A stretch of DNA of 64,000 nt, from the NCBI GenBank assembly GCA_014649555.1, contig BMTG01000001.1, positions 248,001 to 312,000 on the forward strand, read 5' to 3'. A model generated the notes under the pieces. That model was not told where the DNA came from. It saw only the letters and a list, made by a program, of their open reading frames with translations, and made no database searches. Source of the stretch: Streptomyces globisporus. Lineage in GTDB: Bacteria; Actinomycetota; Actinomycetes; Streptomycetales; Streptomycetaceae. Positions 11,709 to 56,048 of the stretch are shown here, in pieces (position 1 is the first letter of the stretch; the number at the start of each line of letters is the position of its first letter). The position numbers and the translations under genes were made by a program.

Positions 11709-11735
11709 CGCTGTGTACGACGGTGTTACGGCCCG

Positions 11736-12182: not shown

Positions 12183-12244
12183 CTCCACCGACCTCCTCGC
12201 ATCGTCGAGTAACGAACACCGCAACCGTATTGCACCTGCATCGC

Positions 12245-12291
12245 CTCAGCCGCGACACGGCTGGATCGCTCCAGCTCGGGCCGCGGCTGAG
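12245..12291 (-). terminator. Possible terminator of the atp operon
   Basis: A 10-bp inverted repeat (12245-12254 and 12282-12291) encloses a second hairpin with a 6-bp stem and TCGC loop (12260-12275), 25 bases after the atpC stop. No T-run follows on the minus strand, so this is a structural guess. Confidence 0.45.
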
Positions 12292-12315
12292 TAAAAACAA
12301 CTGTCCGTGGGGGTG

Positions 12316-12690
12316 CTAGAGCACCGCCACCGCACGCAGACGGATCTCGGCGCGCCGCTCAGCGGCAGCGTCGGCATCCGACTTCGCGAGCTCCAGCGCC
12401 CGCTCGGCGCGCTGGACATCGATCTCGTCGGCCAGCTCGGCGATCTCCGCCAGCAGCGACAGCTTGTCGTCCGCGAACGAGATGAATCCACCGTGCACGG
12501 CGGCGATCACGGTACCGCCCTCGCTCGTGCGGATCGTCACCGGGCCCGATTCCAGCACACCGAGAAGCGGCTGGTGACCGGGCATGACGCCGATGTCGCC
12601 GGACGTGGTACGCGCGACGACCAGGGTGGCCTCGCCGGACCAGACACTTCGGTCCGCGGCGACCAGCTCGACATGCAGCTCAGCAGCCAA
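12316..12690 (-). CDS. atpC: ATP synthase F1 subunit epsilon
   Basis: A 124-residue central-stalk subunit that couples rotation to catalysis and can inhibit ATP hydrolysis. It has the N-terminal beta-sandwich ([14 protein letters not shown], then [11 protein letters not shown]) and a C-terminal helical pair rich in Ala, Glu and Arg. Last gene of the atp operon. Confidence 0.95.
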
Positions 12691-12799
12691 GGGTGGCTCC
12701 TCGGGTCACCACCCGGCCGCCCGGCCGGGTGTTGGGTCAATTCTACGGGGCGTGGTGAGGGGGGCGGGACACACCCACCCCCCTCGGTGAGCCGGAGGC

Positions 12800-15159
<2,360 letters not shown>

Positions 15160-15162
15160 CGA

Positions 15163-26948: not shown

Positions 26949-27113
26949 GGTGTCTCCTAGTTTCGGGAGGGCACCGGGTCGTCCGCGCGGATTTGCGGGG
27001 CCGTGAACCGGGGCCGACGTACCAGTCTGCCAGGACCGGCCGTATCTCCCAAAACCGGGGGCGGGGCGCGGGTATTCCCGCCACCCGGCCGTGCACCCGG
27101 GGTGACCGGTGGG

Positions 27114-39794: not shown

Positions 39795-39866
39795 GCCCCC
39801 GTAGCTCAGGGGATAGAGCATCGGCCTCCGGAGCCGGGTGCGCAGGTTCGAATCCTGCCGGGGGCA
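39795..39866 (+). tRNA. tRNA-Arg (anticodon CCG)
   Basis: A full cloverleaf can be drawn. The acceptor GCCCCCG pairs with CGGGGGC, the anticodon loop is CTCCGGA with CCG as anticodon, the T arm has GGTTCGAATCC, and the discriminator is A. CCA is not encoded. It decodes CGG, a common Arg codon here. It marks the boundary between conserved genes (left) and the accessory cluster (right). Confidence 0.96.
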
Positions 39867-39884
39867 CCGTAGTTCAGGTGCCAC

Positions 39885-39987: not shown

Positions 39988-40860
39988 TCACACGAAGATC
40001 CGCACCGGCGTGGTCGCCGCGCCCCGTTCCCCGCGCATGCGCCGGGTGAAGAGGGTGCCGTGCAGGGTCGGGTCGACGGTGGGCGCGACGCGGTACGGGG
40101 TGCTCCGCAGGGCGTGCCACAGCACGGCCTGGTTGGAGGTGATCACCGGCACGCCCAGCGTCTTTTCGAGGGAGGCGACCGCCCCCTGGCCGGGGAAGCC
40201 GCTGCCGGGTATCAGGACGCTGTCGAAGGTGCCGGCCGGGGCGGCGCGGTAGGCGTCGACGACCTGGCGGTGGACCGCGTCCGGGGCGATCGTCCAGTGG
40301 GCTCCGGCGTCGAAGGCGTTGTACCGCGTGATGGTGTCCCACGGGGAGGACAGGGCGAACTGGACGATCCGGTCGCCCGCCACGCCCGCCGTACGCAAGT
40401 AGGCGTCGGTGGCCCGGAAGGTCGGTTCGGTGAACCAGGGCGGCATCACGACGAGGGGCCGGGTCACCGCGGTGGCGGTGAGCGCTTCGGTGATGGCGGT
40501 GGCCGCCGTGTGCACGGCTACGCCGTGGGCATGCCGTGCGGCCGCCGCGACGAACGCGGTGTCGAAGCCGGGTCCGCCGAAGAAGCTGCTGGAGCCGAAG
40601 CAGAGCGTGATGCTGTCCACTCCGGTCCTGCCCAGGTGGTCCAGGCCGCGGACCACGTCCGGGGCGTCCGCGAGGGCGAGGGCCGGGCTGCCGACGTACT
40701 CGGTGTCGTCGGGGCGGGGGCACTCGAAGCGTGCGGTGTGAACGGACACGCCCGCGGGCGCCATGCGCCAGATCTCCGTCTCCGGCACCGGATCGTTGTG
40801 GATGACCAGGAGGCCCAGCCGGGGTGCGTGGTCCACCGTGCCGTGTGCGGTCGCGGTCAT
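39988..40860 (-). CDS. Asp/Glu racemase superfamily enzyme, maleate isomerase/arylmalonate decarboxylase-like
   Basis: A 290-residue cytosolic protein. The first half has the Cys-containing loop SITLCFGSSSFFGG with C87, matching the first catalytic Cys of maleate isomerase. At the expected second Cys the loop reads LIPGSGFPGQG, with no Cys. One-Cys members of this superfamily act as decarboxylases or isomerases rather than racemases. Its ATG overlaps the exporter stop by four bases, so it is the last gene of the cluster operon. In a maleimide-type pathway it could decarboxylate an intermediate or handle a ring-opened maleamate; this is inference. Confidence 0.75.
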   Translation of the reverse strand: MTATAHGTVDHAPRLGLLVIHNDPVPETEIWRMAPAGVSVHTARFECPRPDDTEYVGSPALALADAPDVVRGLDHLGRTGVDSITLCFGSSSFFGGPGFDTAFVAAAARHAHGVAVHTAATAITEALTATAVTRPLVVMPPWFTEPTFRATDAYLRTAGVAGDRIVQFALSSPWDTITRYNAFDAGAHWTIAPDAVHRQVVDAYRAAPAGTFDSVLIPGSGFPGQGAVASLEKTLGVPVITSNQAVLWHALRSTPYRVAPTVDPTLHGTLFTRRMRGERGAATTPVRIFV

Positions 40861-42377
40861 CGGCCGACGCTCCCCGTCGCGGGCGACTCTCCGGCCAGAG
40901 ACCGTTCCGCGTGGTCGCGGCCCGTGCCGTCCTCGGCCAGGTGGGCGGGCGCGTCCTGGGCGGCCTCCTCGTCCGGGGCGGACGTGGACGCCTTGCCCGA
41001 CGCGGCGAATCCGGTCCAGGCGAGGGCGGCTCCCGCGACGGCCAGTCCGGCGGCCAGCAGGAAGGCGGCGCGGAAGGCGCCGTCACCGATGTCGGCGCCG
41101 AGCACCAGCACCACGACGGCCACGCCGAGCGCGCCGCCCGCGTACTGCGTCGTCGTCATCATCGCCCCGGCCACACCCTGGTTGTGGTCGGCGACGTCAC
41201 GCGTGCCGCCCACGAACATCGAGGTGTAGATCATGCCGTGGCCGAGTCCGCTCACCACCAGACCGGGGAGCAGCGCCGTGAGGTAGTCGTGCGAGGAGGT
41301 GGAGAGGCCCAGCAGGAGCAGTCCCGCCGCACCGATGGCGAAGGCGAGGGTCAGCGTGCGCCGTACGTCCAGGATGTTCAGGAGTCGGCCGGCGAGGACG
41401 TTGCCGAGGGTGATGCAGGCGGCCAGCGGCAGGAAGGCGATGCCCGCGGCCAGCGGCTCGTACCCGCGGCCGTCCTGGAGGAGCAGGGTGACGAGGTAGA
41501 ACTCGACGCCGGCCACGCTCGCCATGTAGAGGGCGGAGGAGCCGCAGCCCACGACCAGGCTGCGGGTGCGCCGGAGCACCGGTGCCACCAGCGGCTGTCG
41601 GCTGGTTCGTTCCCGTACGACGAACAGGGCGAGCAGCGCCGCGCCCACCGCGAGGCTGATCAGGGTGGCGGGGGCGGTCCAGCCCGAGTCCGCGGCCAGC
41701 GTCAGGCTCAGGGCGAAGACCAGGACCGTGGCGGTGCAGAGCACGGCGTTGACGATGTTCAGCGGGACACGCGTGCCGCCCTCGCGGCGTCCGGGCAGCA
41801 GCCGGGGGGCGGCCAGCGCGCACACCACGGCGAACGGCAGGTTCACGAAGAAGGTCCAGCGCCAGGACACCGTGGTCAGCAGCCCGCCGATGACGACCCC
41901 CGCGGCCAGCCCGCTCGCGCCCACCGCGCCCCACACCGCGAGAGCCCGGGTGCGTTCCCGGCCTGCCGGGAAGGTGGTGTTGACCAGGGCCAGGATGGCG
42001 GGCTGGAGTGCCGCGGCGGCGACGCCCTGGGCGCCGCGGGCGATCAGCAGCAGGGAGGCGTCCCCGGCGAGTCCGCCCAGGAGTGAGGAGACGCCGAACA
42101 GGACGAGCGCGCCGATGAACATGTTGCGTGCGCCGAGCCGGTCGCCGATCCGGCCTCCGGCGATCAGGAATCCGGCGAAGAACACCGAGTAGGCGCTGAC
42201 GACCCATTGGACGGCGCTGCCGGACAGGTTCAGCTCCGCGCCCATGCTGGGCAGGGCGACGAAGATGACGGAGAAGTCGAGGGCGATGAGGAACTGGGCC
42301 GCGGAGAGGGTGAGCAGCCCTCCGGTCAGGCTTCGCTCGGACTTCGTCGTCGCGGGAGGGGGGTCGGCGTACTGCAT
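40857..42377 (-). CDS. MFS exporter, DHA2 (14-TM, EmrB/QacA) family
   Basis: A 506-residue proton-coupled drug/metabolite exporter. It has about 14 membrane helices, motif A in GGRIGDRLGARNMF, and motif C-like GAVGASGLAAGVVIGGLL in helix 5, typical of antiporters. Located inside the biosynthetic operon, it most likely exports the product and gives self-resistance. Four-base overlap with the next gene. Confidence 0.9.
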   Translation of the reverse strand: MQYADPPPATTKSERSLTGGLLTLSAAQFLIALDFSVIFVALPSMGAELNLSGSAVQWVVSAYSVFFAGFLIAGGRIGDRLGARNMFIGALVLFGVSSLLGGLAGDASLLLIARGAQGVAAAALQPAILALVNTTFPAGRERTRALAVWGAVGASGLAAGVVIGGLLTTVSWRWTFFVNLPFAVVCALAAPRLLPGRREGGTRVPLNIVNAVLCTATVLVFALSLTLAADSGWTAPATLISLAVGAALLALFVVRERTSRQPLVAPVLRRTRSLVVGCGSSALYMASVAGVEFYLVTLLLQDGRGYEPLAAGIAFLPLAACITLGNVLAGRLLNILDVRRTLTLAFAIGAAGLLLLGLSTSSHDYLTALLPGLVVSGLGHGMIYTSMFVGGTRDVADHNQGVAGAMMTTTQYAGGALGVAVVVLVLGADIGDGAFRAAFLLAAGLAVAGAALAWTGFAASGKASTSAPDEEAAQDAPAHLAEDGTGRDHAERSLAGESPATGSVGR

Positions 42378-42477
42378 GGTGAGCCACTTCCGTTCGTGCG
42401 TGGGATGCGTGGGGGCGGATGCGTGTGCGGGGTTCGTGCGGGGGATTCGTGCGGGGGGAGCAGGAAATGAGGGGGTG

Positions 42478-43197
42478 TCAGGGGAGCGGTACGGGGGCCG
42501 CGCGCGGGGCCGGGGCGGTGGGCGGCGAGGGTTCCCGGCCCAGGCTGCGGGCCAGGTCCGCGACCGTTTCCACCACCTGTACGGCGCCGGAGGCGGTCAG
42601 CTGACGCGCCGACGCTACGCCGTAGGTGACGCCGATGGCCCGCATGCCGGCGCCGGCGGCCATCCGCATGTCGTCGACGGCGTCGCCGACCACCGTGCAG
42701 AGGTGGGCGGGGCTGCCGATCCGTTCCGCCGCGAGGAGCGCAAGGTCCGGGTGCGGTTTGCCGCGCTCCGCCATGCCGTGGCAGATGATGGCGTCGAACT
42801 GGTCGACCAGGGCCGCCGGTTCGAGCAGTTCCATGGCGCTGGGGCGGATCTTGCTGGTGACGACGGCCGTCCGGTAGCCGCTCCGGCGCAGGGTGCGCAG
42901 GAGGTCGGGGATACCGGGGAAGACCAGCGCCGCGGCCTCCGGCACCACGGTCCGGCGGAACAGCTCCCGGAAGAGGGCCACGGCTTCCGCCACCGGTGCG
43001 CTGCCCTCCGGACTGCCCGTCAGATCGGCGAAGACCGCGGTCAGCGGGCGGCCCACGGTGGCACGGACACGCTCGTCCGGCACGTCGCCGTGGCCGGTCT
43101 CGGCCAGGACCCGGTGCAGGGTGTTCGCGATGGCTCCCGGGGTGTCCAGCAGGGTGCCGTCGAGGTCGAAGAGGATCGCGGGGCGCTCGGCGCTCAC
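42478..43197 (-). CDS. HAD-superfamily phosphatase (PGP/PMGP type)
   Basis: A 239-residue phosphatase. The nucleophile Asp11 and acid/base Asp13 are in FDLDGTLLD, motif II in VVTSK, Lys in RGKPHPD and Mg2+ acidic residues in GDAVDDMRMA. The GTG start overlaps the stop of the PsuG homologue (GTGA). In C-nucleoside pathways such a phosphatase removes the 5'-phosphate left after ribose-5-phosphate coupling. Confidence 0.88.
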   Translation of the reverse strand: MSAERPAILFDLDGTLLDTPGAIANTLHRVLAETGHGDVPDERVRATVGRPLTAVFADLTGSPEGSAPVAEAVALFRELFRRTVVPEAAALVFPGIPDLLRTLRRSGYRTAVVTSKIRPSAMELLEPAALVDQFDAIICHGMAERGKPHPDLALLAAERIGSPAHLCTVVGDAVDDMRMAAGAGMRAIGVTYGVASARQLTASGAVQVVETVADLARSLGREPSPPTAPAPRAAPVPLP

Positions 43198-44174
43198 TGG
43201 GACTCCCCCGCGCGCTCCGCCAGTTCGAGGGACATCTGCACGGCGAACTCACCGGCGAGGGTGGCGGTCGACAGCAGCACCGCGCGGTTGGCGGCGGAGG
43301 TGCGCCCTTCGGTCGCTTCGGCTATCGCCTTGAGGAGGTACGGCGTGATGGCGGGGCCGGTCACTCCCGCGGCCTCCGCGAGGGCGGTGGCGTCCGCCAG
43401 AGCCGCCTCGATGTCCGCGGTCGGGATGCCGTCCGCTTCGCTGATGGGGTGGGTGACGAGCAGGGAGGTCTCGTTGCCGACCTGCCAGTGGGTGGCCGCC
43501 ACGGCGGCGATCTCACGGAGGTCGTCGATGCGGTGCGGGTTGCGGACTCCGGTGCTCACGCTGAGGTAGGCGGGGAAGTCGTCGCAGCGGTAGCCGACGA
43601 CGGGGATCCCCGCGGTCTCCAGCCATTCCAGGGTCCACGCCGGGTGCAGCATCGACTTGGCCCCCGCGCAGACCACGGCGGTGCGGCTGCGGGTGAACTG
43701 CACCAGGTCGGCGGAGATGTCGAAGCTCTGCGGGGCGTCCCGGTGGACGCCGCCGATGCCGGCCACGGCGAACACCGGGATGCCCGCGAGGTCGGCCGCC
43801 AGCAGGGAGGAGGACACCGTCGTCCCGCCGGCGCCGCCGCCCGCCAGGGTGAGGCCCACGCCCCGGGTGCTGACCTTGGGGATGGAGGTGTCGGTGGCGA
43901 ACTGCTCCAGGCGGTCCTTGTCCATACCGACGAGGATCTTGCCGCCGAGCAGGGCGATCCGGGCGGGGACCGAGCCCGAGGCGCGAACGGCCGCGTCGAT
44001 GTCGAGTGCCAGGTCGAGGTTGGCCGGGAAGGCCGGGCCCTGCGGAATGGCCGAGGACTCCAGGGCGACGACCGGCCGTCCCTCGTGCAGCGCCTCGGCC
44101 ACCTCCTCGTCGAGGACCAACAGGTCGGGGTCTGCGGCGAGGGCCCGGTGCAGGGCGGTGGTCACAGCGGTCAT
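43194..44174 (-). CDS. Pseudouridine-5'-phosphate glycosidase (PsuG) homologue, likely C-glycoside synthase
   Basis: A 326-residue IndA/PsuG family enzyme. PsuG makes or breaks the C-C bond between ribose 5-phosphate and uracil through a ring-open lysine Schiff base. The lysine is K173 in VVCAGAKSML, the conserved Glu is E39 in VVALESS, and IGGVHR and FDISADL are kept. The base-facing loop differs from PsuG (SAIPQGPAFP instead of TxxxHGxPxP). That change, its place with an A domain, carrier protein and HAD phosphatase, and the absence of a pseudouridine kinase point to use in C-nucleoside antibiotic synthesis, as for SdmA of showdomycin. Confidence 0.88.
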   Translation of the reverse strand: MTAVTTALHRALAADPDLLVLDEEVAEALHEGRPVVALESSAIPQGPAFPANLDLALDIDAAVRASGSVPARIALLGGKILVGMDKDRLEQFATDTSIPKVSTRGVGLTLAGGGAGGTTVSSSLLAADLAGIPVFAVAGIGGVHRDAPQSFDISADLVQFTRSRTAVVCAGAKSMLHPAWTLEWLETAGIPVVGYRCDDFPAYLSVSTGVRNPHRIDDLREIAAVAATHWQVGNETSLLVTHPISEADGIPTADIEAALADATALAEAAGVTGPAITPYLLKAIAEATEGRTSAANRAVLLSTATLAGEFAVQMSLELAERAGESQ

Positions 44175-44251
44175 GGTGGGACTCCTTGGGATGACAAGTC
44201 GTTCTGGAAGGCGGGGAGTTGCATGGATCCGGGCGTGCGAGGTCCGGGGAT

Positions 44252-44959
44252 TCAGGCCTTGACGGCGGGCTCGGCCTCGTCGGCCAGCGAGCCGCCCGGG
44301 ACCGTCCCGTCCCCCTCGACGAACCGGGGGTGGGAGCGGCGCATGGAGGCCATGACGAACTCGTAGGGCAGGTCGTCGAAGGTGCCGTGGTCCTTCACGA
44401 ACTCCATGGCCCCGCCCTCCTGGCCGTACGGGTGGTGGAGGCTGTCGCCACGACCGTCGAACTCCAGCGCCTGCATGCCGTACAGCTTGCAGAGCAGCTT
44501 GTTGAAGACCGGGGTGGCCTTCACCCAGGCGCCCTCCAGGTAGACCTGGGTCAGGCCGTGGAAGAAGACGTCGCCGCCGATGTGGGCGAGCAGGCGGGGC
44601 GAGGCGAGATGGTTGCGGACATCGCCGTAGACCAGCCGGGAGGGGATGCCCAGGGCTCGTACCGCCGCCGCGTACAGGGCGGACTTGTGCAGGCAGAAGC
44701 CGGAGCGGGCAAGCGCGGTGCTGGAGGCCTTGAGGCCGGTGACGGACAGGTCGGCGCCGTAGACCTCGTAGTCGACGGTGTCGCGGACCGCGTAGTACAG
44801 CTTCACCGCGTTGGTGCGGCGGTCGGCGGAGCGGTCGTCGACCACGTGGTCGACGAACTCCTGGACCGCGTCCGTCTCGTAGTCGAGGAAGGAGGTCGGC
44901 CGCGTGAGGTGGAGAAACGGGTCGAGCGGGGCGGCGGATGCGGGCAGAGGGGAGGTCAT
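44252..44959 (-). CDS. Transglutaminase-like cysteine enzyme
   Basis: A 235-residue protein of the transglutaminase/arylamine-acetyltransferase-like fold. The Cys-His pair is C89 in SGFCLHKSALYAAAVRAL and H134 in VFFHGLTQVYLEGAWVKAT; at the usual third position (WxxxDP) Asp is replaced by Thr149. Related enzymes in thiotemplate clusters transfer or hydrolyse carrier-bound acyl groups. Release of the pyrrole carboxylate from the carrier protein is the natural guess here. Start ATG 44959. Confidence 0.72.
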   Translation of the reverse strand: MTSPLPASAAPLDPFLHLTRPTSFLDYETDAVQEFVDHVVDDRSADRRTNAVKLYYAVRDTVDYEVYGADLSVTGLKASSTALARSGFCLHKSALYAAAVRALGIPSRLVYGDVRNHLASPRLLAHIGGDVFFHGLTQVYLEGAWVKATPVFNKLLCKLYGMQALEFDGRGDSLHHPYGQEGGAMEFVKDHGTFDDLPYEFVMASMRRSHPRFVEGDGTVPGGSLADEAEPAVKA

Positions 44960-45033
44960 GGCGGTCCCGTGGGTCGGGCGGCGCGAGGCCGGGTGGCAGG
45001 GGCGGGGGCCGGGTGGCAGGGGCGGGGGCCGGG

Positions 45034-46173
45034 TCAGAGGCCGAGGAGCGCGGCGATGCGGTTGCGCTGGATCTCGCTGGTGCCGGAGTAGATCGTTCCG
45101 GCGATGGAGTTGCGCAGGTCGCGCTCGACGCCGTGGGCGGTGAGGACGCCGCGTCCGCCGTGGATCTGAACGGCGTCGAGCGCGGTACGGACGTTGGCCT
45201 CGGAGACCACCGTCTTGGTCGAGGCGAGGTCGAGGGAGGCGTCCTGCCGCTCCTCCACCTTGGCGCCGGTGTCGCGCAGCCACTTGCGGGCGGTCTCGAC
45301 CTCGATGCTCATGTTGGCGATCTTGTGGGACACGGCCTGGTAGCTGCCGATCGGCTTGCCGAACTGTTCGCGCTTCCTGGCGAAGGCGATCGTCTCCTCC
45401 AGGCGCCGGGTCATCTCGCCCAGGGTGATGGAGAAGGCGAACAGCACCTCGCGCTTCATCACGTAGTCCAGGACCAGGAATCCCGCCCCTTCCTTGCCGA
45501 CCCGCTGGGCGACGGGAACCCGCAGGCCACGGAAGTCCAGGGTGCCGATCGGGCTGGTGCGCAGCCCGATCTTGTCCATGGCGGGACCCACGGTCAGACC
45601 GGGTGTGCCCGCCTCGACGAGCAGGCAGGTGAGGCCGAACGGGCCGGGGTCGCCCGTGCGGACGTAGAGCAGGAACAGGCCGGCCACGGGCGCGTTGGTG
45701 ATGAACATCTTGCCGCCGTCGACCACGTAGTGGTCGCCGTCCCGTACGGCGGTGGTCGCCGTGTTCATCGCGTCGGAGCCTCCGGACTCCTCGGTGATGG
45801 CGTGCGCCGTGATCGTCTCGCCGGAGAGGATGCCCGGCAGGTGACGGCCTTTCAGTTCCGCGCTGCCGAACCGCTGGAGGGGAACGCCCACGGAGACCAT
45901 CTGGGTGGAGGTGGAGAAGGAGAGGCCGGAGTCGCGGGACACGTGCCCGAGCCCCTCCAGTACCCGCATGGTGTCGGTCAGCGACCTTCCGTGGCCGCCG
46001 TGTTCGGTGTCGAACGGGGTGCGCAGGATGCCGGACTCGCGGACGGCGGACCACTTCTCGTGGGAGAACTCCGCTTCCCGGTCCAGCGCGTCGAGGTCGG
46101 TGTTGAGCCGTTCGGCCCAGGGGGTCATCAGGGTGAAGAGATCGTCGGGGGGCGCGTTCGGGGGGCGGGGCAT
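45034..46173 (-). CDS. Acyl-CoA-dehydrogenase-like flavoprotein, probable carrier-bound aminoacyl dehydrogenase
   Basis: A 379-residue FAD-dependent desaturase. It has the FAD-binding ITEESGGSD and the C-terminal signature IYSGTSEIQR. The medium-chain catalytic Glu of that signature (YEGT) is Ser363. Ungapped alignment to the residues after it places E242 (MKREVLF) at the isovaleryl-CoA-dehydrogenase base position, which prolyl-carrier dehydrogenases of pyrrole pathways also use. It should oxidise a ring attached to the carrier protein. A 143-base gap separates it from the ectC-like gene. Confidence 0.85.
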   Translation of the reverse strand: MPRPPNAPPDDLFTLMTPWAERLNTDLDALDREAEFSHEKWSAVRESGILRTPFDTEHGGHGRSLTDTMRVLEGLGHVSRDSGLSFSTSTQMVSVGVPLQRFGSAELKGRHLPGILSGETITAHAITEESGGSDAMNTATTAVRDGDHYVVDGGKMFITNAPVAGLFLLYVRTGDPGPFGLTCLLVEAGTPGLTVGPAMDKIGLRTSPIGTLDFRGLRVPVAQRVGKEGAGFLVLDYVMKREVLFAFSITLGEMTRRLEETIAFARKREQFGKPIGSYQAVSHKIANMSIEVETARKWLRDTGAKVEERQDASLDLASTKTVVSEANVRTALDAVQIHGGRGVLTAHGVERDLRNSIAGTIYSGTSEIQRNRIAALLGL

Positions 46174-46316
46174 GAGGTTCCTTCGTCAGGAGGGGCGAGG
46201 GCCCGTCGGGGCGCACGGCATGAGGGTGCGCGGCGCCCCGACGGCGGGGAGGCAGGGCGCGGCCGGCCCCTGGCGGGACGCGGTGGGTGCGGCATCGGCC
46301 GGGGAGGGCGTACGGC

Positions 46317-46691
46317 TCAGTACTGGGAGAAGCCGTCCTCGGAGAGCGTGTGCTTCTCGTTGCCGACGATCGGCGGGTTGAAGACCGATATGAGGTGCAG
46401 ATCCTCGTCGTCGGAGGCCACCAGGTAGTGGGGGTCGTGCTGGTCGAGGGCGTAGATCATGCCGGGCAGGATCTTGTGGTGGGTGCCGTCCTTCTCGACG
46501 ACCTCGCCCGAGCCGGCCACGCAGAAGCAGGCCTCCAGGTGGTTGCGGTACTGGAGGGCGCTCGTGGTGCCCGCTCGCACCAGCGTGACGGCGACGGCGA
46601 AGCCCATCTCGTCCGCCTGGGTGAGCAGTCGGTGGCTGGTGCCGTTGCCCCACTGGACGGGAACGACGTCGTCGACACTGCGAATGATCAT
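46317..46691 (-). CDS. Ectoine-synthase-like cupin (EctC family)
   Basis: A 124-residue single-domain cupin colinear with EctC. Iron-ligand equivalents E53, Y80 and H88 are kept at a constant offset from Paenibacillus EctC Glu57/Tyr84/His92 (numbers from memory), and the C-terminal VFNPPIVGNEKH is the family signature. No ectA, ectB or ectD is nearby, so it does not make ectoine. EctC is known to cyclise glutamine slowly to 5-amino-3,4-dihydro-2H-pyrrole-2-carboxylate, which suggests that this homologue closes the five-membered ring of a glutaminyl thioester. Confidence 0.85.
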   Translation of the reverse strand: MIIRSVDDVVPVQWGNGTSHRLLTQADEMGFAVAVTLVRAGTTSALQYRNHLEACFCVAGSGEVVEKDGTHHKILPGMIYALDQHDPHYLVASDDEDLHLISVFNPPIVGNEKHTLSEDGFSQY

Positions 46692-46748
46692 GAGGAACTC
46701 CTTGGAAAGTGAGGAAGAAGGACCGGGGGTGCGGAGGAGCCGGCGGGG

Positions 46749-47015
46749 TCAGGCCGCCAGGGCGCGCGAGTTGGCGCCGATGAACGCGGTGATGGCGGCG
46801 ATGCTGCGGAAGTCGGCGGGGCCGAAGTCCAGCTCGTCGACCGGAAGTTCGTAGAGGCGTCCGATGTGGGAGACCATCCGGACCAGACCCAGGCTGTCGA
46901 TCACTCCGTTGGCGATCAGGTCGTAGTCGTGGGTGAGGTCCGCGCAGTCCTCGCCGTCGAGGAACGTGGCCACGATGTACTCGTGGATCTCGGCCGCTAT
47001 GTCGGTACTGGTCAT
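46749..47015 (-). CDS. Stand-alone peptidyl/acyl carrier protein
   Basis: An 88-residue acidic four-helix carrier protein with the phosphopantetheine site S41 in GVIDSLGL. Its ATG overlaps the stop of the adenylation-enzyme gene by four bases, so that enzyme is its likely loading partner. No phosphopantetheinyl transferase is encoded nearby. Confidence 0.92.
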   Translation of the reverse strand: MTSTDIAAEIHEYIVATFLDGEDCADLTHDYDLIANGVIDSLGLVRMVSHIGRLYELPVDELDFGPADFRSIAAITAFIGANSRALAA

Positions 47016-48478
47016 GCTGACTCCTTGAGGCGATCGGCCTTGATGAGGCCGCGGTCGGGCTTGCCGGTGGACGTGCGGGGCAGAGGGGCCTCGGTGACGC
47101 GCACCGAGGACGGGATGGCGTGGCGGGGCAGGTGGCGGCCGGCGTGGGCGCGCAGGCCCAGTCCGGTGAGGGAGCTGGTGGGGCGGCGCACCACCTGGGC
47201 GTGCAGGCGGACTCCGGCCTGTTCGTCGGGGAGGGCGACCACCACCGCCTCCGTGACGTCGGGGTGGGAGGCGATGACGGTCTCCACCTCCAGGAGGTTG
47301 GTGCGCACGCCGCGGATCTTGACCTGCCAGTCGGCGCGGCCCTCCAGGTACAGCAGGCCGTCCGTGCCACGGGTGACGAGGTCTCCCGTGCGGTAGTAGG
47401 GGTGACCCTCGATCTCGGTGAACGCCTTCGCGTTGAGGGAGGATTCGAGGTAGCCGCTCGTCTGGAAGGGGGTGGTGACCAGCAACTCCCCCATGCCGGG
47501 GCCGGAGAGCCGCTTCCCTTCGGGGGTGAGCAGTTCGGCGCGTACGCCCTCGACCGGGCGGCCGATGGGCAGCCGGCCCTCACAGGTGGCGGGTGAGAAG
47601 GGGTGGATGAAGGAGTCGTTGGTCTCCGTGCAGCCGAACACGTTGTGGAAGCGCGCCCCGGGGAACGCCGCGGCCAGCGGGCGCAGCAGGTCCGGCCCGA
47701 GCGCCTCGCCCGTGGTGACGACCTGGCGGACGGTGGGGAAGGCTGTGCCGTCACCGGTCAGCAGCCGGTGCAGCAGGGGCACGCCCTGGACGAAGGTGAC
47801 GGTGTGCGCGGCGACCAGGTGGCGCAGGTGGGCGCCGTCGGCCGCGCGGTCCTGGTCGACCAGGACGACCCGGGCCCCTTCCCGCAGGAACGTCCAGACG
47901 TCCAGCAGGGCGAGGTCGAAGTTGAGCGGGGCGTAGGAGAGGCTCGTGTCGTCCGCCGTGAGGCCGAAGTCCCGTGCGGCCCAGTCCGCGAAAGCGGCGA
48001 AGCCGTCGAGGGGAATGGGCACGATCTTGGGTGTGCCCGTCGAGCCCGAGGTGGTGAGGAGCAGCCGGGTGATCCCGGGGTCGGGCGTGCCGAACCGGGA
48101 GGCGTCGGCGGCGTCCTGGGCGACCGGCTCGGCCGAGATGACACCGTTGTCGGTGACGACCAGCAGGTGGGAGGCGCGGGCCTGCCGGCACAGCCGGTCC
48201 CGCGCCGCGCCGCCCAGGTCCGGAGAGGGCGCCAGCACCACCAGGCCTTCGCGGAAGGCCGCGAGCATCAGGGCGAGGGTCTCCGGGGACTTGTGGGCCG
48301 GAACGCACACGGTGTTTCCCGCGACCGGTCCCAGCCGGCCGAGCCGGTGGCGGAACGTGCGTACGGTGTCGGCCAGTTCCCGGTAGGTGACGGTGCGCCG
48401 GTGGCTCACCAGCGCGACCCTTTCGGGTCTGTTCTCGCCGTGGGCGAGAACGGCATCGACGAGCTGCGGTGACGGCAT
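47012..48478 (-). CDS. Stand-alone NRPS-type adenylation enzyme
   Basis: Activates a carboxylic acid with ATP and loads the carrier protein encoded next. 488 residues. Core motifs seen are LTTSGSTGTPK (A3), NFDLALLDVW (A4) with D188 at the amino-group-binding Asp position, NVFGCTETND (A5), YRTGDLV (A7), GRADWQVKIRGVR (A8) and the catalytic Lys473 in TSTGKPDR. Asp188 indicates an amino-acid substrate; glutamine is inferred from the ectC-like partner. First gene of the operon. Confidence 0.9.
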   Translation of the reverse strand: MPSPQLVDAVLAHGENRPERVALVSHRRTVTYRELADTVRTFRHRLGRLGPVAGNTVCVPAHKSPETLALMLAAFREGLVVLAPSPDLGGAARDRLCRQARASHLLVVTDNGVISAEPVAQDAADASRFGTPDPGITRLLLTTSGSTGTPKIVPIPLDGFAAFADWAARDFGLTADDTSLSYAPLNFDLALLDVWTFLREGARVVLVDQDRAADGAHLRHLVAAHTVTFVQGVPLLHRLLTGDGTAFPTVRQVVTTGEALGPDLLRPLAAAFPGARFHNVFGCTETNDSFIHPFSPATCEGRLPIGRPVEGVRAELLTPEGKRLSGPGMGELLVTTPFQTSGYLESSLNAKAFTEIEGHPYYRTGDLVTRGTDGLLYLEGRADWQVKIRGVRTNLLEVETVIASHPDVTEAVVVALPDEQAGVRLHAQVVRRPTSSLTGLGLRAHAGRHLPRHAIPSSVRVTEAPLPRTSTGKPDRGLIKADRLKESA

Positions 48479-48980
48479 GGAGGTTCCCCTGTCGGATCGG
48501 ATCGCGTGGAGCGGTGGGAAGCGGCGCTTCGGTGCTGTACAGCGGGGCGACGGTGCCGCGCTGTGGAGCAGGTCGTGCGGACGTTCTCCCGTGACCTCTC
48601 CGCTGCGGTACCGAGCGGCCGGGTCGTCGGGCCCGGCGCTGCGGTGGGTTGTTCGGTCATCACCATGCGAAGCGAGCGGAAGCCCTCACAAGCGGTGTCC
48701 TGGCTTCTCGTCAGGTCCGCCCGACTCCGTCAGATACGCCGACTTCGTCAGGTCGCACGCCGGGGGTGCGCGGGGGCGGCATGCGCCCCGGGGTGGTGCC
48801 CCCACCACACCTCCAGGCCTCCCGGGAGTCCGCAGGACCGGCTCGGACCGGCCCCCATGGTGGTCCGGCCACCACCCGCACGCCGGATGGGGTCGTCGTG
48901 ACACCTCTGCCCATGACCGCCGGGGCGGGCAGAGTGACGGTCATCGGGAGAGGCAGCGAACAGGACAGGGCGGGAGAGGC
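48479..48980. promoter_or_regulatory. 502-base divergent control region of the cluster
   Basis: No gene is seen between the adenylation gene (left, minus) and the transposase-like gene (right, plus). It holds three spaced copies of a CGTCAG-centred repeat (48709-48714, 48728-48733 and 48746-48751). GGGAGAGG at 48972-48979 is the ribosome binding site of the right-hand gene. The operon promoter must lie here, but no -35/-10 can be fixed by eye. Confidence 0.6.
48703..48755. repeat. Three iterons of a CCGACTYCGTCAGGTC-like motif
   Basis: CTTCTCGTCAGGTC, CCGACTCCGTCAGATAC and CCGACTTCGTCAGGTC follow each other with CGTCAG starting at 48709, 48728 and 48746 (steps of 19 and 18 bases). The same motif occurs twice at 57006-57037, on the far side of the cluster. 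Confidence 0.7.
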
Positions 48981-50303
48981 ATGAGCAGAGCAGTGATGTC
49001 GGGCCGCGCGGCCGGACCGGGTCTCGGCCGGCTGGAGGTCGTGGAGCCGACGGACACCGTCACCGAGCTGTTGGCCACGCTGATCTCCCCGGTCCTGCGC
49101 CGCAGGGACCAGCGCAGGCGGGCCGAGCAGTACGTACGGGGTCTGCTGTCGGTGGACGGCCGCAAGTCGGTGCGCAGGATCGCCAGCAGTGTCGGCGGGG
49201 GCGCGGCCGAACAGGGCCTGCACCACTTCGTCGCGCACTCCACCTGGGAGTGGAACGCCATGCGTGAGCGGCTCGCCCGTCACGTCCAGGGGGTGATGCC
49301 ACCACAGGCGTGGGTGGTGCAGCCGGTGTCCATCCCGAAGGTGGGCGTCCATTCGGTGGGGGTGCACCGCCGGTTCGTCCCTCATCTGGGCCAGGCCGAC
49401 AGCGGCCAGCAGGCGTTCGGTGTCTGGTTCGCCGCCGAGGACATGAGCGTGCCGGTCAGCTGGCGGCTGCACCTGCCGGGTGACTGGGTGCACGACGAGG
49501 AGCACAGGAGACGGGCCGACATCCCCGCTTCGGTGGTCGAGGAGACGCTGGAGGAGTGCGCTTCGGCCTCGGTGCTGGGCGCCGTGCTCGGTTGGCGGGT
49601 GCCGAGGGCGCCCGTGGTGATGAGTGCCGCGGGCCCTGACGTGGGGGGCACGATGCAACGTCACCGCGCCGCCGGACAGCCGTTGTTGCTGCGGATCTCC
49701 GGGACGACGGGGCTGACCGTGGCCGACCCGTCGATGCCCGGGCACGGTGCGGGGCGGGTGAGCGCGCACCGTATCGCCGCGTCGGTACGGGCGCTGCGCC
49801 GCCCCGTCGGGTGGCCGGTGCCGGGCGGCGCACCGGGCGAGGCCGGCCGCTCCTCGGTGGTGGCCGTGCGCGTGGTGCTGCCCGCCCCGGGACCGCGGGC
49901 CTCCCGCGCGGACGCCGGGCGGCCGACGGGGCTGCTGCTGGCGGAGTGGCTCGATCCCGACGGACCGCCGGCCGGGTTCTGGCTCACCGAGATGGCCGAC
50001 ACCCCGGTTCCGGCGCTGGTGCGGCTGGCCAGACTGGCCGACCGGGTGGCCGGGGACTTCGCGACGCTGGGCGACAGGGTCGGGCTGCGGGACTTCGAGG
50101 GCCGGTCCTTCACGGGATGGCACCGTCATGTCACGCTCGCCTCGATCGCGTACGCGGCCATCGCTCTCGGCGGCCGTGACCCATGGTCGGGGCCGGAGCG
50201 TCTCGGTGGGCCCGGGCCGACGGTCGGCTTCGGAGCGCCGGCGGGTCTGAGCGGGCCGACGGGGCCAGACGGGGTCGAGGCGCTCTTCGCACCGACCGGC
50301 TGA
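48981..50303 (+). CDS. IS701-family transposase-like protein, catalytically degenerate
   Basis: A 440-residue protein alignable by eye to IS701 transposases through the N-terminal RAEQYVRGLLSVDGRKSVRRIA block and the IPKVGVHSVGVHRRF block. The first catalytic Asp pair (normally xDDTGFxKKG) reads VVQPVSIPKVG, and the second (TADExYG) reads MSAAGPDVGG, so the DDE triad is lost. No terminal inverted repeats are seen around it, and the frame is intact. The DNA-binding N-terminal region is kept, so a domesticated DNA-binding regulator is more likely than an active element. GGGAGAGG precedes ATG 48981. Confidence 0.75.
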   Translation: MSRAVMSGRAAGPGLGRLEVVEPTDTVTELLATLISPVLRRRDQRRRAEQYVRGLLSVDGRKSVRRIASSVGGGAAEQGLHHFVAHSTWEWNAMRERLARHVQGVMPPQAWVVQPVSIPKVGVHSVGVHRRFVPHLGQADSGQQAFGVWFAAEDMSVPVSWRLHLPGDWVHDEEHRRRADIPASVVEETLEECASASVLGAVLGWRVPRAPVVMSAAGPDVGGTMQRHRAAGQPLLLRISGTTGLTVADPSMPGHGAGRVSAHRIAASVRALRRPVGWPVPGGAPGEAGRSSVVAVRVVLPAPGPRASRADAGRPTGLLLAEWLDPDGPPAGFWLTEMADTPVPALVRLARLADRVAGDFATLGDRVGLRDFEGRSFTGWHRHVTLASIAYAAIALGGRDPWSGPERLGGPGPTVGFGAPAGLSGPTGPDGVEALFAPTG

Positions 50304-50355
50304 GGCCGATGCCGAGGGTCCGGCGGCCTGGAGGTCACCGCGGCGCGCCGCCGGT

Positions 50356-50460
50356 CGTCAGGGATGCGTTGCGGTACGCGGCCCCGCTGTCGTCAGGGAC
50401 GCGTTGCGCTACGTGGCGCCGCTGTCATCGGGGACGCGTTGCGGTACGTGGCGCCGCTGT
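50356..50460. repeat. Three tandem 35-bp repeats
   Basis: Units at 50356-50390, 50391-50425 and 50426-50460 share the pattern CGTCAGGGACGCGTTGCG...CCGCTGT with only 3-6 differences between copies; a fourth copy starts (CGTCAC) at 50461. They fill most of the 168-base gap between two convergent genes. Purpose unknown. Confidence 0.9.
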
Positions 50461-50471
50461 CGTCACGGTGC

Positions 50472-52556
50472 TCACGGGCCCGGACGGGAAGGCGGTCCGC
50501 CCTCGTGCTCCAGCACCTGGCGAGCGCGTTGCAGGCGCAGGGCGAGTTGCACCTCCAGGGCGCGGGCCGGCTCCTGCCAGTCACTGCCGAGCAGGTACGT
50601 GATGCGTTCCAGGCGCCGCGACACGGTGTTGGGGTGGACGTGCAGCGTCTCGGCGGCCCGGGTCGGGCTGTTGCCCGAGGTGAAGTACTCCTCCAGGGTC
50701 CGCAGCAGCTCGGTCGCCTGCTGACTGTCGTAGTCCAGCACGGGGCCCAGCGTCGAGGCGATGAATCCGCCGACGTCGTGCCGCTCCGACAACAGCAGCC
50801 CCAGAAAGCCGAGTTCCCGCTGGGAGGCGGCTCCGCCCGTGCCGCCCAGAGCGGTCAGTGCGTCCAGGCAGCGCTGTGCCTCCTGGTAGGTGCTCCGCAC
50901 GGCTCCCAGGGCGGTGACCGGTCCGGCGGCTCCCGCGGTGACGGGGTGGGCGAGCACCACGGACAGTTCCCGGGACACGGTCCGCCCGGCGGCGGTGGGA
51001 TCGTCGCCCGGCACCAGCAGCACGATGTGTTCCCCGTCGACGTACTTGAGTCCCGACAGCTGATGCACGTAGGACGAGGCCCATACGACCGCCCGGCCCT
51101 GCGCGCCGCCTTCGGGACGGGCCACCACGACGACATGCGGCTGAGCGAGGTTGACGCCGAGCCGGCGGGCACGGGTCGCCAGTTGTTCCGGGGAGAGCTG
51201 GGAGGCGAGTAACTCGTGGAAGAAGTCGTCGCGGACGTGTGCCTCGGCCACCACCGTGCTGCGCTGCATGAGCATCAGTACGGCGACCGTCTGGGCGGTG
51301 AGCGCCATCAGCCGTTGCCGGTCGTCCTCGGCCGGCCCCGGCCCGTGGACGACGAGGGTGCCCAGGTGCTCCGCGCCGCCGGTCACCGCGTGGACCCACA
51401 CCTCGGTGTCGTCGTCCGCCGTGCTCTCGCAGCGGATCGGCTCTCTGCGCGCGTAGGAGTCCAGGGAGGCCCGTACGAGTGCGGCCTCGTCGACGGAGAG
51501 CGGCCCTCGTCCGGTGGTGCCGTCCCCGGCTTCCGTACCGGCGCTCCTGGCTGCGGACGACCGCGCGGCGGACGGTTTCGGCGCGCTCGGTGAACCGCCG
51601 CGCGCCTGGCCGGTGGCGGGCGCCGGGAATCCCGCGGTCCGTTCCAGATCCTTGCCGACCGCGTCGCGGACCATCAGTTCCGAGCCGAGTTCGCCGGCCG
51701 CCCGCCCGAGCAGGGTGTGCAGATCGCCCCCGTGGAGGATCAGGTCGATCAAGTCGCTGTGGATCCCGTGCAGTCGGGCGGCGGCGGCCGAGCGTCCCCA
51801 GGCCCGGCTGGTGTCCTCCTCCAGCTCGGTGACCTCGCTCCGCGTCTGCTCCAGCAGGCTGGTCCGTTCGATGGCGACGGCCGCGAGGTCGGCCAGCGAG
51901 CTCATCAGGGATATCTCGTCGGGCACGAAGTGCCGGATGTTGCGGTCGGCGGCGTAGAGGACGCCGAAGGAGGAGTCCGCGTGGCGCAGCGGGACGGCGA
52001 CGATGGCCCGGAGTCCTTCGACCCGCACGACGTCGTCGATGACCGCGGCGTGTTCGAAGGACTCGTCGCGTAAGTAGTCCGAGGTCCAGAAGGGGGCGGA
52101 GCCCTGCCGGGCCTGTCTGCCGACGCCGCCGTCGTTCGGCACCTCGAAGCCGACGGTGATCGCCGAAGCGTTGCCGTCGGCGGCGCGCACGCGTGACAGC
52201 GCGCCGGCCGAGTCGTGCAGGCTCACCCAGGACATGTCAAGGCCGAGCAGCAGCCGGGCCCGCCGGGTGATCACCTTCAGCAGGGCGTCCAGGTTGTACG
52301 GGAGCGTCAGGTCACGGGCGGTGTCCACCAGGGCGGACAGTCCCGCCTCCCGCTGCTGACGCCGGCCGAACAGCTGGCGCACGCTCAGCGCGTGGTCCCT
52401 GGCCTCACCGAGCCGGGCGAGGGCATCCGCCGGGGCGCCCTCGGCCGCGGCGCGGCGCACCGGTTCCTCGAACCGGTCCACCGGCGCCTCCTGCGCCAGC
52501 AGTTCCAGCATGCTCAGTGCGTGGCCGTCGAGCGAGCCGTCCGCATCGGGCGACAT
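50472..52556 (-). CDS. GAF-domain PucR/CdaR-type transcriptional regulator with a TTA codon
   Basis: A 694-residue regulator. An N-terminal helical region precedes a GAF domain (about 75-240) with LLLGLDMSWVSLHDSAG and GVLYAADRNIRHFVPDE. A linker, a second sensor-like region and a C-terminal PucR helix-turn-helix (TLHVHPNTVSRRLERITYLL) follow. Codon 162 (DYLRDE) is TTA, at 52073-52071, so translation should need the bldA tRNA. ATG 52556 with GGGAGG upstream is preferred over a GTG at 52598. It is the best candidate for pathway-specific control of the cluster. Confidence 0.9.
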   Translation of the reverse strand: MSPDADGSLDGHALSMLELLAQEAPVDRFEEPVRRAAAEGAPADALARLGEARDHALSVRQLFGRRQQREAGLSALVDTARDLTLPYNLDALLKVITRRARLLLGLDMSWVSLHDSAGALSRVRAADGNASAITVGFEVPNDGGVGRQARQGSAPFWTSDYLRDESFEHAAVIDDVVRVEGLRAIVAVPLRHADSSFGVLYAADRNIRHFVPDEISLMSSLADLAAVAIERTSLLEQTRSEVTELEEDTSRAWGRSAAAARLHGIHSDLIDLILHGGDLHTLLGRAAGELGSELMVRDAVGKDLERTAGFPAPATGQARGGSPSAPKPSAARSSAARSAGTEAGDGTTGRGPLSVDEAALVRASLDSYARREPIRCESTADDDTEVWVHAVTGGAEHLGTLVVHGPGPAEDDRQRLMALTAQTVAVLMLMQRSTVVAEAHVRDDFFHELLASQLSPEQLATRARRLGVNLAQPHVVVVARPEGGAQGRAVVWASSYVHQLSGLKYVDGEHIVLLVPGDDPTAAGRTVSRELSVVLAHPVTAGAAGPVTALGAVRSTYQEAQRCLDALTALGGTGGAASQRELGFLGLLLSERHDVGGFIASTLGPVLDYDSQQATELLRTLEEYFTSGNSPTRAAETLHVHPNTVSRRLERITYLLGSDWQEPARALEVQLALRLQRARQVLEHEGGPPSRPGP

Positions 52557-52843
52557 GACGTGGTCCCTCCCAGGAGGCCGCAATTCCTCGTCAGGCACAG
52601 GTCATATCCCCGGGCCCTTCCCCCATAGAAGCCTCGAGGAACGTAATCCACATCTCATCAGGTGGTCAACACCACTTGACCGCCGTCACCGGAGGTCACA
52701 GCGGTTACGGGTGACGGGATCACCACCCCGCCGGGCGGACGGTGTCGTCGCGTCACCTTCCGGCGGGAAGCGGCGACGGACCACGCTGTGCATGCAGGCG
52801 TTGCAGAGAGTAGCGCCGTCGCCGAAGGAAGAGGTGGGGTCCC
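52557..52843. promoter_or_regulatory. Divergent region between regulator and methyltransferase genes
   Basis: This 287-base region carries both ribosome binding sites and an inverted repeat GTGGT-CAAC-ACCAC (52662-52675) that could be an operator. It also carries CTCGTCAGG at 52587-52595, a 9-base match to the first iteron at 48.7 kb. Confidence 0.5.
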
Positions 52844-53740
52844 GTGTCAGCCGTACCCGTCGCATCCGTCGTCTCCGCACCCCGGGCCGTCGTACCCGCA
52901 CCGGCCGGTCCCGGCACCGCTCCCACTCCCGGGTGCCCGCGTGAGGCCGAGGCACACCAGGTGCGGAGTTTCACCAGATCCCTGAATCGCAGCCGCCAGT
53001 CGCTGACCCGCGCCGACCGGCCCCGCACCTTCGCCCTCGGGGGCCGGGAGTGGGATCTCCTGGACGAGGTCTTCGCCCCGGTCTACTCGCCCTCGACCGG
53101 CGTGGGCCTGGACTTCCTGGGCCTCAACGACCCGCGGCCGGCGGACACCGACCGCCGGGAAGCGGCGGTCACCACCGCCTTCGCCCCGGACGTGTCCGGC
53201 AGGCGGGGTTCGTTCCTGGAGATCGGCTGCGGCGCCGGAGTGATCGCCGTGACGGCCGCCCTGGCGGCCCACGGCCCGGTGGTGGCCTGCGACATCAGCC
53301 CCCAGGCGGTGGAGAACACCGCGCGGAATGCCGAACGGCACGGCGTGCAGAGCCGGTTGAGAGCGGTGTGCGGTGACCTGTTCGGCGGGCTGGACGACGG
53401 CGAGCGCTTCGACACGGTCTTCTGGAGCTCGAACTACGTCCTCGGCCCCGCCGACTACGTCTACGAGTCGGTCCACGAGCGCGCCTACGTCGACACCGGC
53501 TACCAGGCCCACCGGCGCTACCTGGAGGAGGCGCCGCACCGGACCACCGCATCGGGCGCGGCCCTGCTGCACTTCAGCAGCCGGGGCGACGTCGCCCTGC
53601 TCCACCGCATCGCCGCGGAGAGCGGCCGCGAGCTGCGCACCCTGGCCGCCTGCCTCGTCCAGGAGGGCGAGTACGGCAACGACCTGGTCGAGCACATGCT
53701 GTTCCAGATCCTTCCCGCCCCGCGCTCCCGCCGAGCCTGA
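52844..53740 (+). CDS. Class I SAM-dependent methyltransferase
   Basis: A 298-residue protein. After an Ala/Pro-rich N-terminus of about 35 residues comes a Rossmann methyltransferase with motif I FLEIGCGAGVIAV (125-137), motif II acidic D150 in VVACDIS and motif IV VFWSSNYVLGP (193-202). The fold is closest to PrmC-type enzymes, but the NPPY motif is replaced by SSNY, so N-methylation of Gln is unlikely. GAAGAGGTGGGG precedes GTG 52844. Its substrate is unknown; it is followed 71 bases later by the pabAB fusion. Confidence 0.82.
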   Translation: MSAVPVASVVSAPRAVVPAPAGPGTAPTPGCPREAEAHQVRSFTRSLNRSRQSLTRADRPRTFALGGREWDLLDEVFAPVYSPSTGVGLDFLGLNDPRPADTDRREAAVTTAFAPDVSGRRGSFLEIGCGAGVIAVTAALAAHGPVVACDISPQAVENTARNAERHGVQSRLRAVCGDLFGGLDDGERFDTVFWSSNYVLGPADYVYESVHERAYVDTGYQAHRRYLEEAPHRTTASGAALLHFSSRGDVALLHRIAAESGRELRTLAACLVQEGEYGNDLVEHMLFQILPAPRSRRA

Positions 53741-53811
53741 GCCGGCGCGCCGCGATGAGACACGCGTCCCCCGTGCACGCAGGCCCCGAGCGAGGGAAGT
53801 CAGACACCGCC

Positions 53812-56007: not shown

Positions 56008-56048
56008 TGCCAGGCGTCGCGCGGCAGGCGGCAGTTTGACGACAGGCC

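Follow-up and report, generated by a model that had tools for sequence, protein, structure and literature searches.

The closest described counterpart of the system considered here is the showdomycin pathway. According to the portion of a review available to us (PMC8724604), SdmE cyclizes glutamine, SdmC activates the cyclic product and SdmD carries it, after which oxidation, hydrolysis, the action of SdmA and SdmB, and non-enzymatic steps follow; the sdm cluster is given there as 16 genes over 12.2 kb. SdmA and MinB are presented as homologues of YeiN that likely form a covalent sugar-lysine intermediate, in the section seen of PMC9832568. As for glutamine cyclization, the accessible part of PMC5924519 states that EctC can convert glutamine into the cyclic amidine 5-amino-3,4-dihydro-2H-pyrrole-2-carboxylate (ADPC), although very inefficiently and with glutamine favored at equilibrium. 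Here, we analyzed a 64,000-nucleotide stretch of the 8.25-Mb genome of Streptomyces globisporus (hereafter the window; contig BMTG01000001.1, positions 248,001 to 312,000), in which nine intact minus-strand genes occupy positions 39988-48478. Judging from gene families and arrangement, we estimate, with a probability of roughly 0.83, that the cluster containing these genes directs the biosynthesis of a showdomycin-type C-nucleoside.

A sequence-only reading of the window had described nine same-strand genes in this interval with several 4-base overlaps. Reading frames and family assignment with Pfam and NCBIfam bear out these genes and their families, apart from one racemase label discussed below, and eight of the nine genes, all but that for the transglutaminase-like protein, are also picked by third-position GC. 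The operon starts with a stand-alone adenylation (A) domain of 488 residues (47012-48478; AMP-binding), followed by an 88-residue peptidyl carrier protein (46749-47015) and a 124-residue EctC-like cupin (46317-46691; Ectoine_synth, E = 9.8e-34). The carrier protein scores under the Pfam PP-binding cut-off (16.8 vs 20.8 bits) and has the motif GVIDSLGL, whose Ser41 is conserved in at least 95% of 42 aligned homologues. The next two genes encode a flavoprotein of 379 residues (45034-46173), an acyl-CoA dehydrogenase whose nearest NCBIfam model is an L-prolyl-carrier dehydrogenase, and a transglutaminase-like protein of 235 residues (44252-44959; Transglut_core); the latter gene is nested in a far longer mechanical open reading frame (44252-46216) and starts at 44959. 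They are followed by a predicted PsuG/AlnA-type C-glycosynthase of 326 residues (43194-44174; Indigoidine_A/PsuG, E = 8.3e-94), a HAD phosphatase of 239 residues (42478-43197; HAD_2), a DHA2-type major facilitator superfamily (MFS) exporter of 506 residues (40857-42377; MFS_1) and an arylmalonate-decarboxylase/EutA-like protein of 290 residues (39988-40860; Amdase, E = 4.4e-12). Three of the eight junctions (A domain/carrier, PsuG/HAD and MFS/Amdase) are 4-base overlaps, the remaining five being gaps of 57-143 bp.

The families, the conserved active-site residues, the linkage of the genes and the placement of the PsuG homologue, as read from the sequence, would fit a route for which we propose all substrates and the order of the steps. 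The cupin, as a putative glutamine cyclase, would act ahead of the A domain, which would adenylate ADPC and load it onto the carrier protein. The flavoprotein would oxidize carrier-bound ADPC to the 2-aminopyrrole-5-carboxyl thioester, in analogy to the formation of pyrrolyl thioesters by prolyl-carrier dehydrogenases, and the transglutaminase-like protein would free the acid from the carrier. The PsuG/AlnA-type enzyme would then couple a ring carbon to C1 of ribose 5-phosphate via a lysine adduct, the HAD enzyme would take off the phosphate, and the MFS protein would export the C-nucleoside, whose non-enzymatic oxidation to a maleimide is possible. The sequence-only reading had also proposed that a 2-aminopyrrole carboxylate derived from a nonribosomal peptide synthetase (NRPS) is C-ribosylated by a PsuG-type enzyme, dephosphorylated and exported, and the gene content, active sites, PsuG tree and published enzyme kinds all fit this proposal. 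The window has a separate A domain and carrier protein, as are SdmC and SdmD, predicted candidates for the oxidation and hydrolysis steps of sdm in the flavoprotein and the transglutaminase-like protein, and adjacent genes for a PsuG-type C-glycosynthase and a HAD phosphatase.

Relatives of the cluster were fetched with the PsuG homologue and with the transglutaminase-like protein as queries. We refer to the five genes for the A domain, carrier protein, EctC-like cupin, dehydrogenase and transglutaminase-like protein as the module, and scored their presence by tblastn. Each of the 14 loci in which a PsuG homologue adjoins the module (the window, L009-L015, L056, L071, L090-L092 and L097; L054 and L010 were taken as one contig and counted once) contains all nine operon genes, an association beyond chance, and the hosts are Streptomyces, other actinobacteria and one Burkholderia. 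In the first set of PsuG-homologue loci, which comprises seven besides the window, the module lies beside PsuG in three (L002-L004, with longer stretches as L090-L092), and no module genes are seen beside PsuG in the other four (L005-L008), whose PsuG homologues are 42-45% identical. In the second set, module genes are present in seven of seven loci. The full nine-gene set, together with a nucleoside deaminase, also occurs on a plasmid of Burkholderia stagnalis (L097:6503-15056), so that the gene set extends past the actinobacteria. Among named relatives, Streptomyces sp. PTY087I2 is the closest, with a PsuG homologue 98% identical and DNA 93-97% identical over the shared stretch; its genome paper reports 94.7% average nucleotide identity to S. 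roseosporus and two ectoine clusters, and does not mention C-nucleosides.

In six of the 14 loci (the window, L009-L012 and L015), genes conserved in order and orientation lie ahead of the operon and encode an IS701-like protein (48996-50303, plus strand), a GAF/PucR-type transcription regulator of 708 residues (50472-52598, minus strand), an S-adenosylmethionine-dependent methyltransferase of 298 residues (52844-53740, plus strand) and a fused aminodeoxychorismate synthase PabAB of 750 residues (53755-56007, plus strand). A gene for a transaldolase-like protein of 302 residues (56049-56957 in the window, minus strand) follows pabAB in all five arm-bearing loci with enough flank (the window, L101, L102, L103 and L105). 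Beyond it, the more distant L101-L103 contain only family-level matches to window proteins (38% for a kinase in L103, 34% for an MFS protein in L102). Since the conserved gene order ends at the transaldolase-like gene, the cluster unit is 39988-56957 and consists of 14 conserved genes over 17.0 kb. The arm is not seen in eight of the 14 loci (L013, L014, L056, L071, L090-L092 and L097) within the stretch available for each; L056 is truncated on the Amdase side, and the L013 stretch, only 14.9 kb long, holds a 67-residue stretch of IS701-like match. PabAB passes the NCBIfam PabB cut-off (395.8 vs 328.4), and the further PabA/TrpG- and PabB/TrpE-like genes of the S. globisporus genome indicate that this copy is probably additional. 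Within this Streptomyces subtype, the pabAB/methyltransferase arm forms a conserved accessory. The flanking methyltransferase, pabAB and transaldolase-like genes pointed out earlier are thus present, and the suggestion that they could alter the product gains strength from the way they accompany the operon across several relatives.

The alternative that survives best is that the cluster makes showdomycin itself, with the arm serving only precursor supply, regulation or self-protection, a possibility that we place a little short of even odds. The nine-gene core covers all enzyme kinds of the route as published in the part seen of PMC8724604, and the loci in which the arm is not seen suggest that it is not needed for the core chemistry; however, four of the six arm-bearing loci have arm genes only 49-75% identical to those of the window, and retention of the arm at such distances argues for a specific use. 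The 17.0-kb set also speaks against showdomycin itself, since a unit of this length cannot fit in the 12.2-kb sdm cluster, which is the sole evidence here that sdm differs. This unlikeness in gene content and size bears on whether the two clusters are the same, and not on the core chemistry.

The proposed order of the first steps rests on the ring-forming enzymes. Residues Glu53, Tyr80 and His88 of the cupin align with Glu57, Tyr84 and His92 of Paenibacillus lautus EctC, described as iron ligands in the accessible part of PMC6344544, and each is kept in at least 95% of 45 homologues. The cupin, with its intact metal site, would be the counterpart of SdmE, which the consulted portion of the review does not call EctC-like (PMC8724604). 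Because the EctC equilibrium lies on the glutamine side, later steps would have to pull the reaction. The pocket of the A domain reads DLLQVTVDS, and the solved L-proline ligase 6o6e has DLLYLALVC in the same columns, with the first three positions identical. The pocket is nearly uniform across the 48 A domains at the fetched loci, including those of L082, L084 and L085, where the full module is not seen, with D1 conserved in 48, L2 in 47, L3 in 45, Q4 (residue 231) in 46, T6 in 47, D8 (residue 288) in 47 and S9 in 44. Based on these residues, the pocket is most likely proline-shaped and would hold an amino-substituted ring, ADPC, rather than open glutamine. The top solved matches of the flavoprotein are the prolyl-ACP dehydrogenase 4irn and the L-prolyl-PCP dehydrogenase 5zw0, and its proposed catalytic Glu242, kept in at least 95% of 46 homologues, aligns with the glutamate replaced by alanine in chain 6af6. 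Cys89 and His134 of the transglutaminase-like protein are kept in at least 95% of 53 homologues, and this protein may act as a thioesterase.

An A domain that loads glutamine (or proline), with the cupin acting later or on something else, appears unlikely. Carrier-bound cyclization is chemically possible, and a Gln at pocket residue 231 (278 in PheA numbering) presumably also occurs in glutamine codes, but the dehydrogenase that partners the A domain, like the first three positions of the pocket, is of the proline type. In addition, the published showdomycin order, as given in the part seen of PMC8724604, puts cyclization first. For the same reasons, the step order of the sequence-only reading, in which a glutaminyl-carrier forms and is then cyclized by the cupin, is not supported, and an A domain that does not activate glutamine, which that reading had named as a refutation, would be no refutation of the pathway. 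The earlier reading was thus right in its main line but probably mistaken about how the first steps are ordered, and the core pathway itself is not new, the showdomycin route being published.

The best match of the PsuG homologue in the PDB is the alnumycin C-ribosyl synthase AlnA (4ex8, 260 bits), followed by E. coli PsuG (232 bits). In a tree built from 24 aligned rows, of which L002-L004 duplicate L090-L092, every cluster copy and AlnA fall in one set (100/99). Six proteins lie on the other side, namely the second copy of the S. globisporus genome (L100), YeiN and the four actinobacterial proteins of catabolic type from L005-L008. The window protein thus falls outside the YeiN/housekeeping-type copies, a placement to which the long-branch warning of the tree tool applies. 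The signatures NRxVL[LK]ST and THP are present in 14 of 14 cluster copies, and AlnA has GRSLLLST and TSP; all six proteins of the catabolic side have N[IL]xxVxxN and A[NH]P. The lysine of the GxK[ST] motif (Lys173) is conserved in 24 of 24 rows and, by the numbering of PsuG Lys166, we take it to be the site of the sugar adduct. Pseudouridine catabolism by a PsuG glycosidase among unrelated neighbors, which would agree with the protein family because the Pfam model by itself cannot separate glycosidase from C-glycosynthase, is very improbable given the separate position in the tree, the different signature residues, the second copy elsewhere in the genome, and the aminopyrrole module that stands beside PsuG here and is absent from the four catabolic-type loci.

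Equally improbable is an ectoine-type compatible-solute locus, as EctC-based automatic annotation would say: the cupin does score above the NCBIfam ectoine synthase cut-off (139 vs 128 bits), and a showdomycin-like region is typed 'ectoine,butyrolactone' in the genome-mining table seen from PMC8782336, but there is no ectA or ectB among the neighbors, a second EctC (35% identical) lies elsewhere in the S. globisporus genome, and none of 29 other Actinomycetota EctC homologues with stored flanks (about 1.5 kb per side) stands beside another window gene. Compared with the window cupin, 28 of these 29 are at most 49% identical and one is 62% identical. The 62% homologue (L118/L180; L180:6968-7339) has no other window gene within 15 kb.

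Several observations weigh against the assignment to a showdomycin-type C-nucleoside. The likeness to sdm is one of published enzyme kinds, with no S. showdoensis locus among the recovered relatives, and the product is a prediction from the genes. The pabAB, methyltransferase and transaldolase-like genes misfit a plain showdomycin route, and the Amdase-like last gene of the operon falls outside the assigned chemistry. In the PsuG tree, AlnA, L097 and other cluster copies are long-branched, a situation in which, by the tool's own warning, groupings can be spurious. Finally, the third triad residue of the transglutaminase-like protein is not evident (T in WVKATPVFN).

Alignment of the Amdase-like protein with solved arylmalonate decarboxylases places Gly219 at the position of the catalytic Cys and Phe88 at the first racemase-Cys position, both of which we take to be catalytic cysteines in Amdase and racemase relatives. 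Phe88 and Gly219 are invariant in 20 aligned members. There is thus no Cys at either canonical position expected of a racemase, maleate isomerase or arylmalonate decarboxylase, which makes the earlier label 'Asp/Glu-racemase-like' misleading. In most type 1 proteins, Phe88 is directly preceded by a Cys, with L090 as an exception. A second Amdase-like subfamily, about 28% identical and alike at the Phe88 and Gly219 positions, follows the module in PsuG-free clusters, and 16 columns are invariant across both subfamilies. Since such a gene also occurs in PsuG-free clusters, it goes with the aminopyrrole chemistry and not with PsuG. The relative EutA is a proposed racemase of the cyclic amidine hydroxyectoine, as stated in the section seen of PMC5924519. 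We tentatively suggest, with doubts outweighing confidence, that the Amdase-like protein acts on the aminopyrrole ring by cysteine-free acid-base chemistry; ring decarboxylation or protonation would be a low-confidence guess at the reaction.

The module is not confined to loci with PsuG. A strong match to the transglutaminase-like protein (E < 1e-50) was found in 31 of 392 Streptomyces genomes, that of the window included, at 34 places. All 33 places other than the window were fetched. The complete module occurs at 28 of them, three of which (L054, L056 and L071) also have PsuG; at the other five (L072, L082, L084, L085 and L086), tblastn did not show the full module. L072 may correspond to the L095 record, in which a carrier protein is annotated. 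In total, 29 fetched loci contain the five-gene module without PsuG, including L094, L096, L098 and L099 from plasmid-collection records, and L078 and L079 as two places of one genome. A transglutaminase match by itself was rejected as proof of the module, since that of Polaromonas (L110, 47%) lies among acyl-CoA genes.

Two further types of cluster can be distinguished among these loci. In type 2 (L055, L057-L069 and the S. globosus plasmid L094), the module is accompanied by the second Amdase subfamily, with no PsuG within the available stretch. The PsuG-free module cluster of L094 lies at 10480-15747, and this record also contains SMR transporters, a nucleoside deaminase and butyrolactone genes. 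Published antiSMASH tables, as far as the excerpts go, list showdomycin-like regions with 47% (typed 'ectoine,butyrolactone'; PMC8782336), 29% ('butyrolactone'; PMC11945845), 17% (PMC10272871) and 52% (PMC8303363). Judging from the gene types, some of these genome-mined 'showdomycin' regions may lack a C-glycosynthase, and PsuG-free module clusters may be among them. In type 3, the module stands beside homologues of tryptophan enzymes: TrpA, TrpC (indole-3-glycerol-phosphate synthase), TrpF (phosphoribosylanthranilate isomerase) and a TrpD-fold phosphoribosyltransferase on an S. xanthii plasmid (L095:9724-17062), and TrpD (by annotation) and indole-3-glycerol-phosphate synthase (by Pfam) in Aliiroseovarius (L096:9911-18527). 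L108:5155-12099 and L111:5343-12025 contain the A domain, carrier, cupin and dehydrogenase with TrpA, TrpF and TrpC (by annotation), and no transglutaminase-like gene was found in these two stretches. The Trp-adjoining sets lie on Streptomyces and Aliiroseovarius plasmids.

The position of the module beside Trp homologues suggests that the aminopyrrole acid is handled like anthranilate, and the Trp-linked sets are a separate line of support for the view that the module yields an aromatic amino acid. By tryptophan-like chemistry, such clusters could build a fused pyrrolopyrrole. Putting these types together, we propose, as an idea about which we are slightly less than evenly confident, a portable aminopyrrole-carboxylate module used in several pathways: a pabAB-dependent C-nucleoside other than showdomycin in the window, a PsuG-free maleimide-like product made with a cysteine-free Amdase, and a fused pyrrolopyrrole built by TrpD/F/C/A homologues, with some orphan EctC proteins being glutamine cyclases of the module. 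The wider proposal that all orphan EctC are tied to the module failed in part, since L106, L107 and L109 from rhizobial plasmids have other neighbors. The orphan EctC at 9001-9387 of these three loci represents a second kind, with neighbors that are, respectively, a biotin-carboxylase-like protein and a GNAT protein; an adenylate-forming enzyme and a methyltransferase; and a methyltransferase, a carbamoyltransferase and a polyketide synthase.

Two proteins of the conserved arm have altered catalytic residues. Compared with the IS701-family protein in L174, the IS701-transposase-like protein has VVQP for VVDE and VAGDF for VEETF, so that at least the first acidic pair and the VEETF glutamates are lost; the middle acidic position is ambiguous. 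None of the 15 copies aligned, that of the window and those at fetched loci, retains the first acidic pair, and the protein, as judged from these residues, is probably inactive as a transposase. The S. globisporus genome contains one more IS701-like protein (L184, 35%). IS701-like proteins without the first catalytic acidic pair, probably domesticated, also lie by clusters L063-L069, L085 and L094. The transaldolase-like proteins have G, R or S (G in the window) where the genome's own transaldolase has the lysine of IKIPAT, which we take to be its Schiff lysine. Both proteins are probably inactive as enzymes. Because their genes persist at the same positions, a regulatory or structural function is possible.

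At its other end, the operon lies 119 bp from a tRNA-Arg (CCG) gene (39795-39868, plus strand). This tRNA adjoins the same lysA side in eight of nine relatives checked (no tRNA was found in L175), and other DNA is found here in relatives: no cluster gene is present in the 20 kb by their lysA/tRNA-Arg place, save a 25% IS701-family match in L174. In L171, whose lysA is the most similar, the tRNA and the first gene shared with the far side of the window (that at 60406) are 12.7 kb apart, with other DNA between them. The window was searched for a repeat of the tRNA-Arg 3' end: none was found with 20-30 bases and up to 2-4 mismatches, and a 16-base stretch gave one weak match with two mismatches at 38510. 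Site-specific integration at tRNA-Arg is thus not shown, and what is seen is that the place varies between relatives. An L31-Actinobacteria ribosomal protein leader (Rfam RF03158) at 26970-27017 on the minus strand is unrelated to the cluster.

Known natural C-nucleosides are few, and compounds of this class are resistant to cleavage. Another lineage of showdomycin-type clusters, with clear limits, would offer new C-glycosynthases and possibly a new compound, and our results suggest that clusters tagged 'showdomycin' in genome mining may come without a C-glycosynthase. The function of orphan EctC proteins is an open question in the ectoine literature, according to the parts seen of PMC6344544 and PMC5924519, and the near-uniform A-domain pocket and the recurring module provide a cheaply testable claim on the role of one class of them. 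Among the papers listed in our literature searches, with most subscription papers outside reach, none describes the module or the Trp-like clusters. Within this literature, three things are new: the Streptomyces subtype delimited together with its arm, Amdase-like proteins that are cysteine-free, and the recurrence of the module in other settings.

When the cluster is compared with known systems, AlnA is the closest solved relative of the PsuG homologue, and [NG]RxxL.ST and T.P features are common to both; to our knowledge, the alnumycin pathway has no aminopyrrole module. The substrate of AlnA is a naphthoquinone, as stated in the accessible part of PMC7722734. The L-prolyl-carrier ligases and dehydrogenases (6o6e, 5zw0 and 4irn) likewise combine a stand-alone A domain whose pocket starts with DLL and an acyl-CoA-dehydrogenase-like partner, whereas the window has Q/D/S for Y/V/C in the pocket, fitting an amino-substituted ring, as well as an extra cyclase and a transglutaminase-like protein. 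The minimycin/oxazinomycin system (MinA-MinC), as described in the portion seen of PMC8724604, shares the PsuG-type C-glycosynthase, the HAD phosphatase and a glutamine-derived base, but uses a single multidomain NRPS with oxidase and thioesterase domains; a minimycin-type NRPS was therefore rejected for the window, where the enzymes are all separate and an EctC-like cupin is present. The sdm cluster of S. showdoensis ATCC 15227, compared by its published description, differs in its 16 genes from the 14 conserved genes of the window with their pabAB/methyltransferase/transaldolase-like arm, and has the same enzyme kinds and the same cyclization-first logic.

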